DNA from: Eublepharis macularius
Lineage: Eukaryota > Chordata > Lepidosauria > Squamata > Eublepharidae
Direction of reading: 5' to 3'
Assembly: GCF_028583425.1 (NCBI RefSeq)
Contig: NC_072796.1
Coordinates: 143,043,464 to 143,107,463 of the forward strand
DNA length: 64,000 nt
Made by a program: the position numbers and the translations under genes. Below, piece after piece: positions 22,101 through 28,100 of this stretch (its first letter is position 1; each line of letters starts with the position of its first letter). The notes under the pieces are model-generated. The model was not told where the DNA came from. It made no database searches and saw nothing but the letters and a program-made list of their open reading frames with translations.

Positions 22101-25100
22101 TGGACGTGCATCGTTCCTCCCGCCGCTTCCCCCCAGGTGAGCTGTGTGGACGTATGGGAGTATGCACGGCTGGCATTTTCATTGCCACGGAGCAGTTTCT
22201 GGATGCACGCAACCAGAACTGCGGAGGAAGCTTTCCCAAGAGCCTTGAGGCCCCTCTCCAGAAATGCAGCATGGTTATTTTATTTATTTAAATATTCGTA
22301 TGCCACCTTTCCACCCAAAATAGGGTCCTCAAGGTGATCGACAACAAACAATTACATTTAAAATACATATATAAATACGGTAAAAAACAAACACACGTAC
22401 TCAACCGGGGAGGAGGACCAGTAACCATTTACTGGAGGTATGCCAAACAAAACAAAAAATTCTTCACTCGTTGGCAGAAGAAAATGACAGAGGGAAACAG
22501 GTGAATCTCCCTGGGAAGGGAGTTCAGAAGCGCCGGTGCCACAACTAAGAGTCTCTCTGCACAAGATGTCTGGCACGCGTTCTTCAAGTGCTGGGTGATG
22601 CAATGTTTCCTGGGAACTGTAGGCGCAAGATCGCGGTGGGCGCAAGATCTCTGGAGGAGAGGAACTTTGCAATTATACCCAGAGTGCGGGGGTGGGTGAG
22701 AATGGCAAAGTTCCCCTCCCCCAGCAATCTTTGAAAACTTTTATTTGAAGACCTGGCAGATTCCACCCAGAGTGAGACTAAAGGCTTGCACTCATAGGCT
22801 ACTCTAGAAAAATGCTTCTAATCTAATTTTGCTTTTATTTTCAACCTTCCTCTCCTCAGTTATCCGAAGCGACTCTTTTAAAACTACAGTTCCCAGGAAA
22901 CATTGCATCTCCCAACACTTGAAGGACGTGTGCCAGATGTCTTGTGTAGAGACACTCTGAAGGCTCTTTCTCGGGTTGCCACCCATATGGTGGCAGGTGG
23001 CAGGGGTAGCCAAAAGCAAGACCTCCAGTGCTCTGCAGGCTGGCCAGGTCTGAACTCCTCTGGAGTAGAGCCACTGGCTTAGCTGGCTAGGCTGAGGAGC
23101 ATAGAGCAGCCAAGGGCCTGGAGTTAGGAGCTAGAAGCCTGGAGCTTGATGGGTTTGAACTGAGCAGACAGGCTGAGCCAACAATGCCGCCCTCCCCAGC
23201 TTCAGCCTAAACAGGCTGGGAGGTGTTGGTGCTGAGGCTCCTGAGACTAAGGTGTGCCTTGGCCAGGATCCTGCAAAGTGTTGCCAAGTAGGCCCCCTCT
23301 CCTGCTTTAAGGCCTGCCATGGACTGTGTTAAAGTTTCCTGCATTACTGTTTACTGCTACACAAAGATTGCCCTGCACGTGTGTGTTCTGGTACACGTGT
23401 CAGTTTCCTGCCTGCGTGTTAATTACCTTGCTGCTGCAATAGACTGTGCAGTTCCCTGCCTCCATGTTTGGATAACTGCACAAAGGACTCTCTTCCTGGG
23501 CAGCCCTGCCCAGACCTGTATGTGGACTTCCCAGTGTGTGTTTGGACTTTAGTACAAGTGTGCCCCGTGCCTGCATTGCCATCTGCCACGGACCGTGCCT
23601 GTTCCCTGCTTTGGACTGTGTTTTACGTGCTGTTCCCCCTGCCTCCATGGAAGCCTGCCTCATCTGGGCCCAAGCCGCTGCTAGCAGCCGGGCGCCTGCC
23701 GGGGAAACCTCCAGCGAGCCTGGCTAGGCACTCCCTGGTCAGTTCCCGCCTGGAGCCTCCTGCGGGCCGGTCCCCAAGCTTGCCCTCGCTACCGGGCAGC
23801 CTGCTATCCAGCCCCAGCTATGCCCAGCCGGCATCCATGTTCTCAGGCAGCCAGAAGACCCAGGGAAGAAGACTGCTTTGGGAAGCCATTTCGGCGAAGC
23901 GGGTACACCACGTCCGCAGTGAGAGTACCTCGCCCCGCTCTGCATATCTTAGGAGCCGCCCCGGAGAAGGAACTAAGTGCCGACCATCCCAAGCACTTAG
24001 AGAATGCATCTCAAAGAAACCTCCGCATTCCAGAAGCTGATGACATGTGCAAGTTCAGGCTTACGCCACACTACTAGTAAAGACACATGTTTGTTGAACC
24101 TATTTGTAGTCTGCCTCTTTATCGCTAGAGTGTCTGGAATCGGGACCTCCGTAAACACAGGTTAGATCCGCGCTAATTTTAGTTACAGACTGCTAAAGCT
24201 AATTTCCCCATTATAAAAAGCAGTTCTGGTAACAATTTACTGGTGGAGAATGTGGGCATAACCCGGTTCGTGTGAATCCACGTGAGTCGACACACGTGTT
24301 TTCAGCGAACTGCCGTAGAGGAAAATTTTCCAGACCTCTGTGTAAAGAGCGCAATTTAGCTCAGGGAATTAAAAGTGTGAGTGTGTGTGGCTCTAGCGAG
24401 CAATTCTATCTTGTGGGTTGGCTTTTCCCCGTTTCCTCCTTCAGCCAGCTTTGGACTACTCGCCTTATTTTGTGCACTGCGAGGCTTTACGGCCGTTATA
24501 ACCGGTGTATCTGTGGGTGAGGACCTCTGAACTGGTGAAGTCCCTGGCCACCTTCCGGGCCGCCTAAACGCGTCTATGTGGGTGGGATCCCAGAAGTAGG
24601 CTCTCTCTCTCTATATATATCCTGAAGCAGCACATATAAAACTCTCTTCCGCCCTCCCCCGTCTCTCCTAAGTCCGTCCAAACCCCGTTCCTGCCAGCAC
24701 TTAGGCTTCAATCTCCGCTCCGGAGGAAACGTGAAGGGATCGATAGTCCGTTCGTTTAGTTTAGCTTTGGGAATCTAAAGCCAGGTTCCTGAAGCCCCGC
24801 GGCAGCCGGCCGCACCGTGCTTAAGAGTTTTAAGGAAGACTCTTGAGGGCGACGGTCACGCGAACGCGGAAGTGGCGGCGCCTTAGGAGGCGAAGCGGCT
24901 GAGGGAGGAGGAGGAGGAGCGCGGAGAGGTGAGGAGAGGGTGTCGCTCCCCCCTCTCCAGCCTCCCCCATGATGGGGTTTGGGGCCAACCGGAGGGGTGG
25001 CCGGCTCCCTTCCTTCCTTTTTGTGGCCCGGCTGCTTGTCATTGCCATCCTTGTCTTCAACTATTGGAGCGCTTCATCCCGCCAAGCTGTTCTGCAGGAG

Positions 25101-28100
25101 GAGGTGGCTGAGCTGCAGGGCCAGGTCAAGCGCAGCGATGTTGCCCGCGGGCGCCTGGAGAAGAGGAACTCGGAGCTCTTGCTCCAGATGGAGTCACAGA
25201 AGAAACAGCTGGAGCAGAAGGAAGCCGACTACAGTCAGCTGAGCAGCCAGCTGCAAACCAAGGATGGGCAAATCAGGAAGTGTGAGGAGAGCAAGGTCAA
25301 GCTTCAGAATAACATATCGTACCAAATGGCAGACATACATCGCTTAAAGGAACAACTTGTGTTGTGTTATTTTTGTGTAGTACACTGCTTTCCTGCTCTG
25401 TGGTGCCTTCCTAAAGCAGTTACAGAAATAAAGTGCTTTTGACAGCATTTTTTTGGGGTGATTCTTTAATGTGAAGCGAGTTGTGTTATTTTTGTGTAAG
25501 ATAGTGCTGCCATGCCCTTTGGTGTTCCCCCCTGCTGTGTAACCTAAAGCTGTTCAAGAAATAAAGTGTTTTTGACAGGAATCATGCTTTGTGATTCTCT
25601 GATGTTAAGTGAGTTTTGTTTTAATTTTTCTGTGTGGGGGACTGCTGGTGTAATGTGTCATAATGCTTTGCCTACTTGTACTTTGGAAGGGAGAATATAA
25701 TTTTTTTAAAAACTTTATTTTGTGTTGTTCTTGTTTTATTCTTTGTTGTGCAGTTGGTTCCCATCATAGGGAACAATGGGGCTGGCTGGCCAGCCATCTC
25801 TGTAGGTGGTGGGGGAATTTGAGGGAGGGTGTCTGTGGTTCAGGTGCTCTTTCACAGGGACCAGCTGGCACTCAGAAGTGTGCCCACCATTGTGGCACCC
25901 CTGGGCTGTGCAGAATTGCCCAGGGAAAGAGAGTTTAGAAGTTCCCAGCATAGGGAACAAAGGGAGAGGGCTGGCTTTTGCCAGCCTGTTCCTGGGGTTA
26001 TGGGTGTGGGGCAGGTGGGAGTGGATTTGGGTCTGTGAGGGGCTAATGTGGGGATTTGGGTCTGTGTGTGGCAGCTGGGGGGGAATTGGGTTTGTGTGGG
26101 GCTGTAAGGGGTGGACTTTAGGGGCTGAGAGGACCTACTTGGGGAGGCCATGAAATGCCCCCCCCAAGTGGGAGCAGTCTGAGCCTTGGTGGGGGGTGGG
26201 GGGAAGGGTGGGAGAAGGGCCCCAGAGGGCTTGGGGGCATTTTGCATGCAAAATGCCACCCCTGGCAACACAAGCCTCCCCCAGCTGTCAGTGGTAGAGA
26301 TTAGAGCACCGACTTGGGGAGGCCATGAAATGGCCCTCCCAAGTGGGAGCAGGCTGAGCCTTGGTGGGGGGTGGGAGGAGGGGTGGGAGAAGGGCCCCTG
26401 AGGGTGAGGGGGCATTTTGCATGCAAAATGCCACCCCTGGCAAAGGAAGCCTGCTTCTTCATTTTTCCCCATAGGAAATAATGAAGAAGATGAGTAGCAG
26501 CATGCTAACAATATGCTGCTCCTTCGCCTTCTTATGGGAGGATGGGGGGACCTGCTTTGGGGGGCCATAACATGGCCCTCCAAAGTCCAATCTGTCTGAC
26601 ACTTGGGTGGTTGTTAGAGAAGGGTTAGAGGAAGGTCCCCACCAATTTTGGGCTTATTCGGTGGGAAAATGCCTCCCCCAGACGTCCGGGAAGACGGAGG
26701 CATTTTCCCATTGAAAAGCCGAAAGAAAGCCGAAAGAATCCCGAAACGTTTCGGCTTTTTTCTTTCGGCTACCCGAAACGTTTCGGCATTCCCCGAAACG
26801 TTTCAGCATTCCCCGAAAGAAGCCGAAACACTTTTGTTTCGGCATTCTTTCGGCATTCTGAATGCCGAAACGCACATCCCTAGTCACGACTATCATCTCC
26901 GACTTAGGTAAACCGGTGGTGCAGTCCCTAAATTCCATTTCAAATGGGCAACACGAGATCAGCTCCATTTTAGTTAACCGAGAGAGTCAAATTGAAAGAG
27001 AGTTTTCTCTGCTGCTCAAAGGAACGCAGTCTTTTGAACGCAACGTGTCAATAGCCATGGCATGTATGCAAGCCCAACAATTAAACCAGGCTGTGGCCAT
27101 GGGGCTAATTCGGCAAGCCACGGACGGGCACCTGCCCCTGGAAATTAAAAGATTGATTATGCCCAAATTGTCACCCATTGAACTGGAGCTTGAATCCTGG
27201 TGGTCTCTCGTAAATTCCTCATTCTCACCGACCACCCAGGAGCTTAAATTATTTTTATTAATGGCCAGTGCGCATGAGTCATTCCATGTGTATCCAGTGG
27301 TGCCTCTGGGACTCCAAGTCAGCGACACCGAAGTTCTCTACGCCCGCCACCCCGACCATTGGGCCCGCTTCACCCCGACTGGATGGCAGCTCGTCAGCCT
27401 CCAAGGGTGCCAGCATCGAGACCAGACCGGCTTCATTTGCCAAGACCAAGCCTTTGCACCGCATCATCCCTGTGTAGCCCCGCAAGTCGACGCCTTCAAC
27501 GAGTGCTCCTTCAAGGTCGTCTGGGAGAACAGCTCCGCCGTGGTCTACCTTGGGAAAGGATGTGCCTGCGTGCGAACGGCCTGCAATTTTGTGATCCTGA
27601 ACTCGTTCCAGCTTAAGCCTGTGATCCCGGGAGTCAACCGCTGCTTCTGCAACCTTTCTTCGGTGGCAGCCTGCGACTTCACCTACACGGTACCAGTCTG
27701 GACCCATGAATTTCTTTCCATTGCCTTCTATGAATTTCGCCCCTATGAATTTAGCCCCGAACTAACCCCTCACTCTATCTATTGCAAGTGCGCCTATAAT
27801 CCTCCCATGAACTGGGATCTTTTAATCACCCCCTATCAATTATATTCCTATGAATTTTCTTTTAACCTTATGAATTGCCTTTTAACCTGACTTCCTCCGC
27901 CGAAGTGATTTTAGCCTATTTATCATTTTATGAATTTGGTTTTAACCGGGACCCCTCCTGAACGGTCTCTTTTAAAGGTTATTTAATTAGTGATTTTAAA
28001 CTTTATGAATTTGGTTTTAATCTGGCCGTATGAATTGGTCTTTTAATTGCAAATTTTATTTTTCTGCCCCCATGAGCCCTTCCGCCGCCTCCCCTCATGA

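Follow-up and report, generated by a model that had tools for sequence, protein, structure and literature searches.

A partial copy of spliced GOLM2 mRNA between the long terminal repeats of an endogenous retrovirus of Eublepharis macularius

A 64,000-nucleotide stretch of the Eublepharis macularius genome (contig NC_072796.1, positions 143,043,464 to 143,107,463; hereafter the window) contains an endogenous retrovirus (ERV) that carries an intronless copy of the 5' part of the host gene GOLM2 between its long terminal repeats (LTRs). The viral leader lies directly 5' of the GOLM2 copy; on the 3' side the copy abuts the remnant of a hAT foldback element, and viral env sequence is found only beyond this remnant. 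The entire element, located on contig C7, is enclosed by a single 4-bp target site duplication, AAAG. We consider it likely that a reverse transcriptase (RT) joined spliced GOLM2 mRNA to viral RNA by template switching and that the resulting chimera integrated, that is, that the copy arose by LTR-mediated retroposition.

Alignment to the spliced host gene on contig C18 showed that window nucleotides 24846-25359 (plus strand, as for all features of the element) are a 514-nt copy of GOLM2 mRNA, in which all 514 columns aligned without gaps and with seven substitutions (7/514, 1.4%). The copy comprises exon 1 (83 nt of 5' untranslated region [UTR], 24846-24928; gene C18:13209860-13209942), exon 2 (367 nt, 24929-25295; C18:13210631-13210997), which holds the start codon at 24969, exon 3 (55 nt, 25296-25350; C18:13212874-13212928) and the first 9 nt of exon 4 (25351-25359; C18:13215656 onward). 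The left limit of exon 1, C18:13209860, is only the point at which the match to the gene starts. In the gene, GT-AG introns of 688, 1876 and 2727 bp divide exons 1-4; the copy runs through junctions 1/2, 2/3 and 3/4 and lacks all three introns exactly. An initial annotation, made from the sequence alone, had recognized a GOLM2 segment that looked spliced and had a probable 5' UTR, and the alignment confirmed both the identity and the splicing. That annotation placed the segment at 24850-25442; the segment is present there, but it starts four bases earlier and ends at 25359, and 25361-25442 belong to the hAT element.

Protein comparisons agreed with this assignment: 111 of 132 candidates matched GOLM2 with E<=0.01 (best, 2.6e-57), the named ones being mostly CASC4 or GOLM2, and a snake (Notechis) protein was among the better matches (81%). 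When the animal's own assembly (2.24 Gb, 72 contigs) was searched with a 391-nt query (24970-25360), three matches were obtained, namely the query region itself and two exon pieces of the GOLM2 gene on C18 (98%). This query, for which a missing match is no proof of rarity, revealed no second genomic copy besides the gene; GOLM2 copies outside the query were not sought. The idea that the chimera had moved again thus gained nothing from the search. Inspection of the sequence by eye detected no poly(A) run, no target site duplication of its own and no flanking direct repeat at the borders of the copy.

The 5' LTR (956 bp, 23279-24234) and the 3' LTR (1380 bp, 28931-30310) are flanked by the two AAAG copies at 23275-23278 and 30311-30314, and the sense orientation of the GOLM2 segment between LTRs, also noted in the initial annotation, was upheld. 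The two LTRs differ by 10 substitutions (BLAST) or 12 substitutions (global alignment with one ambiguous indel) in approximately 945 positions (1.1-1.3%). Since this value lies close to the 1.4% that separates copy from gene, the capture seems to date from about the time of integration, and the copy shows no sign of being younger than the insertion of the element. Of 19 other family copies fetched, 17 matched an LTR of about 1.39 kb from end to end; the exceptions were L012 (last 660 bp only) and L021 (52 bp). The 5' LTR lacks about 436 bp that are present in its 3' counterpart and in those 17 copies; the absent part includes a TATTTAA motif, and a TATAAA motif is kept in both LTRs. Because this loss is confined to the 5' LTR, it must have occurred at or after integration.

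The leader (24235-24845) belongs to a large ERV family. Among the best 40 of 1099 candidates scored, the window included, 39 other copies matched it at 94-96%, and all of these matches ended at query positions 606-611, corresponding to window positions 24845-24850. At 24845/24846 the leader is joined to exon 1 of the GOLM2 copy, where gag, pol and the first portion of env would otherwise follow. Ten of 19 other copies could be read past this point (L019, L020, L022 and L029 matched elsewhere, and five had no row), and these continue with further leader sequence. A long, coiled-coil-looking frame occupies the gag position about 0.8 kb past the leader end in five of seven loci, the remaining two being minus-strand loci read on the wrong strand; one such frame gave no Pfam match. 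None of the 10 copies has GT at the leader end and, therefore, none has a splice donor there. Two of them, L027 and L028, read CTCTTGAG where the gene reads CTCCAGGG, so that the 5' junction could involve an overlap of two bases, AG. Judging from promoter-type motifs, the 5' border may lie close to or at the presumed start of the GOLM2 mRNA.

To the right of the hAT remnant, the middle part of env (26883-27706) resumes in register with the env of family copies, to which it is 94.2-97.1% identical; this arrangement supports capture by the virus. Relative to family copies, about 830-856 bp of env are absent at 27706/27707. None of 10 family loci joins the two sides directly: L034, L064 and L065 reach the far side after about 830-856 bp, and the other seven stop short of, or close to, the expected start of the far side. 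An env-like frame (26862-27887) matched nothing at E<=0.01 among 952 protein candidates and nothing in Pfam or PDB, and it was the comparison with family copies that assigned it to env. The viral 3' region (27707-28930) includes an AT-rich ATGAATT tract and a polypurine tract ahead of the 3' LTR. A perfect AT dinucleotide run of 34.5 copies lies within it at 28183-28251.

In one family copy, pol gave RT and RNase H matches above the Pfam cut-off, in keeping with capture by the virus; a protease-like match in this copy, and integrase-like matches in another family piece, were below the cut-off. The best PDB matches to the RT of L030 were the RT/RNase H p80 chains of 4mh8 (E 5.2e-75), which we take to be of murine leukaemia virus type, followed by Pr125Pol of 7o24 (E 4.1e-58), presumably from a foamy virus. 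L034 has an open env frame of 842 amino acids without a Pfam match above the cut-off and with a single homologue (55% identity) among 7992 candidates scored from a collection of 5.8 billion proteins. The element may be a class I (gamma-like) endogenous retrovirus, an assignment to be taken as a lead; the 4-bp duplication agrees with this class and is also seen in other retroviral genera.

At the 3' border of the GOLM2 copy, base 25360 is T, unlike the C of the gene and the A of the hAT copy L038. The right part of the hAT element follows at 25361-26882; its right end, GCACATCCCTA, is present and its left end is absent. A search in which the best 40 of 963 candidates were scored returned 83 matches including the window. 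Apart from the window itself, 43 of these matches are long and start at 25358, two bases before the odd T; the other 39 are short and internal. The foldback structure was evident from L038, which matches its own reverse complement over positions 1-2807 (94%). Both ends could be paired in two of 19 copies, L052 and L055, which show the terminal inverted repeats of a hAT DNA transposon with perfect 8-bp target site duplications (the right end with one mismatch) and lengths of 2701 and 2247 bp; the window keeps the right end only. The break in the window corresponds to about position 1504 of L038, and palindrome axes were computed at about 1404, 1471 and 1536. The right-hand 8-bp target site of the hAT element within env, GTCACGAC (26883-26890), is uninterrupted in 10 of 11 family copies read, L034 having one change, and a hAT match was absent from all 10 family copies tested. 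Similarly, a query spanning the hAT-env border was matched over its whole length by the window only; the 39 other matches among the best 40 of 1648 candidates start at 26883, and none of them spans the border.

Differences private to the window, counted against 19 hAT copies, amounted to 3 of 759 columns (0.40%) in the inner part, which is below the 0.53-0.65% that corresponds to half of the LTR divergence, and to 9 of 294 columns (3.06%) in the outer part. The inner part suits an insertion about as old as the integration or younger, and the outer part does not, though its comparison copies were selected on the inner part. The hAT family itself is very homogeneous: 39 further copies tie at 99% identity and equal score among the best 40 scored, and each of the 19 copies fetched (L037-L055) has no private difference in the inner part. 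The family looks recently active, bearing in mind that these copies were picked as best matches.

We propose that, during retroviral reverse transcription, part of a spliced GOLM2 mRNA would have been copied into viral cDNA through template switching, a switch on the 5' side joining the viral leader to GOLM2 exon 1, and that the chimera would then have integrated on contig C7 with its 4-bp target site duplication and decayed. PMC5408686 presents template switching between packaged cellular mRNA and viral RNA as the model of such retroposition. We regard it as the simplest way to explain why a leader is followed directly by the 5' part of a spliced host mRNA within a single integration. The spliced origin of the copy, the leader to its left, env further to its right and the one enclosing duplication are observed; the switch itself we infer from them. 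Two options, which we rate about equally, might account for the 3' border. Either the template was switched a second time, within the RNA of a provirus in which the hAT element was already present, or a hAT element jumped into the chimera and afterwards lost its left arm through a DNA deletion.

Several observations weigh against this proposal. As no provirus with the hAT element at this env site was found among the best 40 of 1648 candidates scored, the version with two switches lacks its donor template. The 3' junction is close to the middle of the hAT palindrome, a place at which DNA deletions would be expected too, and base 25360 fits neither parent sequence. The overlap of two bases is itself weak, and in the same form it is missing from the other eight viral copies read at the 5' junction. 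In the assembly, query 24970-25360 revealed no further copy from which the chimera could be recognized as a mobile unit. Finally, env has 12 private differences in 816 columns, more than any of 11 comparison copies (0-1.34%) and more than the leader (2/610 columns; 19 copies) or the LTRs (5/760 for the 5' LTR and 4/761 for the 3' LTR; 17 of 19 copies).

A later deletion as the origin of the 3' border has, in our estimate, an even chance. The chimera may then at first have contained more GOLM2 sequence and met viral sequence further upstream; the hAT element would have entered env, and a break near the palindrome centre would have removed the left arm together with the adjoining GOLM2 and env sequence. 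Palindromes are described as stimulating deletions in PMC7680136. The position of the break between the computed axes, the low count of private differences in the inner hAT part and the failure to find a donor provirus with this hAT all favour such a deletion; however, the outer hAT part has the high count, obtained against copies chosen for the inner part, which makes its age uncertain, the donor could simply be missing from one assembly, and no earlier form of the locus was seen. This explanation concerns the right border alone and is compatible with retroviral capture. We regard as rather unlikely a more specific version of capture in which a giant hairpin, formed in the viral RNA by a nested hAT element, was the trigger: the RT would have left the viral template near the hairpin apex, run along the GOLM2 mRNA to its capped 5' end and been forced back onto the leader. 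If this were true, nested inverted repeats would be a trigger for host-gene capture and mRNA 5' ends would be preferred exits.

Two other routes appear quite unlikely, both to the same degree. A long interspersed nuclear element (LINE) could have placed a processed GOLM2 copy in the leader of an existing provirus, a later deletion then removing the 3' part of the copy with its poly(A) and target site duplication as well as gag and pol. The spliced origin is compatible with this, and a deletion at the hAT element could have erased the diagnostic 3' end; however, LINE copies are usually truncated at the 5' end and complete at the 3' end, the opposite of the present case, neither a poly(A) nor a separate duplication is visible, and the divergence of the copy from the gene is similar to that between the LTRs, hence the copy is not visibly younger than the provirus. 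The same absences at the borders told against the separate processed copy that the initial annotation had offered as an alternative. Classical transduction would start from a provirus upstream of GOLM2, whose read-through RNA, after a DNA deletion fusing leader and exon 1, would lose the introns by splicing before packaging. The route, as outlined in PMC4299795, would likewise yield spliced GOLM2 after a leader. Against it, when C18:13203000-13262800 was compared with the LTR, leader, env and hAT sequences, with E up to 1e-2 and the low-complexity filter on, none of them matched, and the leader end lacks the GT of a splice donor in the 10 copies read. That the GOLM2 piece was cargo of the hAT element, another alternative raised at the outset, was suggested by the abutment of the two in the window and is extremely improbable: the hAT is a separate element that does not include GOLM2, its left end is found neither at the border with GOLM2 nor anywhere in the window, and the 43 long ones among the 82 other hAT matches start at 25358, where L038 continues with its own left arm and not with GOLM2. 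This cargo origin, contradicted by the hAT copies seen, and a chance match were both rejected.

An open frame extends from 24969 to 25442. Since the sequence from 25361 is hAT, the frame consists of 130 GOLM2 codons (24969-25358) followed by 27 codons from the junction and the repeat and then a stop; the GOLM2 codons are uninterrupted, as initially reported, and the last 27 are foreign to the gene. AATAAA signals occur downstream of the GOLM2 codons at 25427 and 25560. Against Pfam, the GOLM2 frame gave weak matches to unrelated families only, all under the cut-offs. Copy and gene differ at four residue-changing and two silent coding positions, too few for a formal selection test. In an alignment of 11 sequences, Arg21, which replaces Leu21 in the membrane anchor, is unique to the copy; Val53 recurs in a human sequence and in no other, and for Met2 the sole counterpart is residue 1 of one unnamed protein. 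These differences, the replacement in the anchor and the truncated frame do not indicate that selection has maintained the frame. The element has since decayed. Given that query 24970-25360 revealed only this copy and the gene, that about 436 bp of the 5' LTR are gone and that the anchor contains an arginine, the GOLM2 copy is probably a dead passenger without function. The reading of host-gene capture by a retrovirus-like element held for a spliced cDNA lying on the same strand within an LTR element; a segment acting as a viral gene found no support.

LTR-mediated retroposition by template switching was reportedly set out by Tan et al. in 2016. Oncogene-transducing retroviruses hold host coding sequence within their LTRs, as the GOLM2 element does; unlike them, it shows no evidence of transmission, selection or a growth function. 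The src gene of Rous sarcoma virus is mentioned in PMC4299795. Processed pseudogenes made by LINEs are intronless as well, but the GOLM2 copy has neither poly(A) nor its own target site duplication and has kept its 5' end and lost its 3' end. It resembles LTR-mediated retrocopies, for which PMC5408686 and PMC8232201 describe partial mRNAs between LTRs, packaging of cellular mRNA and switching at short similarity: a partial spliced mRNA lies between LTRs on the same strand, and no poly(A) is seen. It departs from them at one GOLM2 border, which abuts half a hAT foldback and might stem from a deletion at a later time.

Among named cases, the closest that we met are crocodilian ERVs that captured host mRNAs (PMC4299795), namely KIT-ligand in CrocERV29 and nectin3 in CrocERV31. 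Here too a reptile ERV holds a host mRNA whose gene is no kinase oncogene and, as with nectin3, it was taken in at the cost of a viral gene. The crocodilian captures are described there as long open frames in several copies under purifying selection, whereas GOLM2 is represented by a 5' fragment in seemingly one decayed copy. The initial annotation had regarded such capture as best known for oncogenes and hardly described for a Golgi membrane coiled-coil protein; that source already records reptile ERVs with captured host genes, and captured genes that are not kinase oncogenes. None of the papers listed in a literature search mentioned GOLM2 or CASC4, which does not show that the case is absent from print. 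The GOLM2 capture is a clear example of an accident of a known kind, although it is apparently single and decayed. It documents at base level how a vertebrate ERV can acquire a host mRNA, in a genome that also contains the parent gene, the exon borders and the virus family. Should the two-switch explanation be true, nested palindromic transposons would be linked to gene capture, and this is testable across a large family (the 1099 leader candidates in this assembly).

Elsewhere in the window, two tandem arrays were observed at 5178-5651 and 21450-21801, with spacings of approximately 52 and 88 bp, respectively. A near-perfect inverted repeat at 61011-61299 has 134-nt arms that are 99% complementary and separated by a 21-nt spacer.

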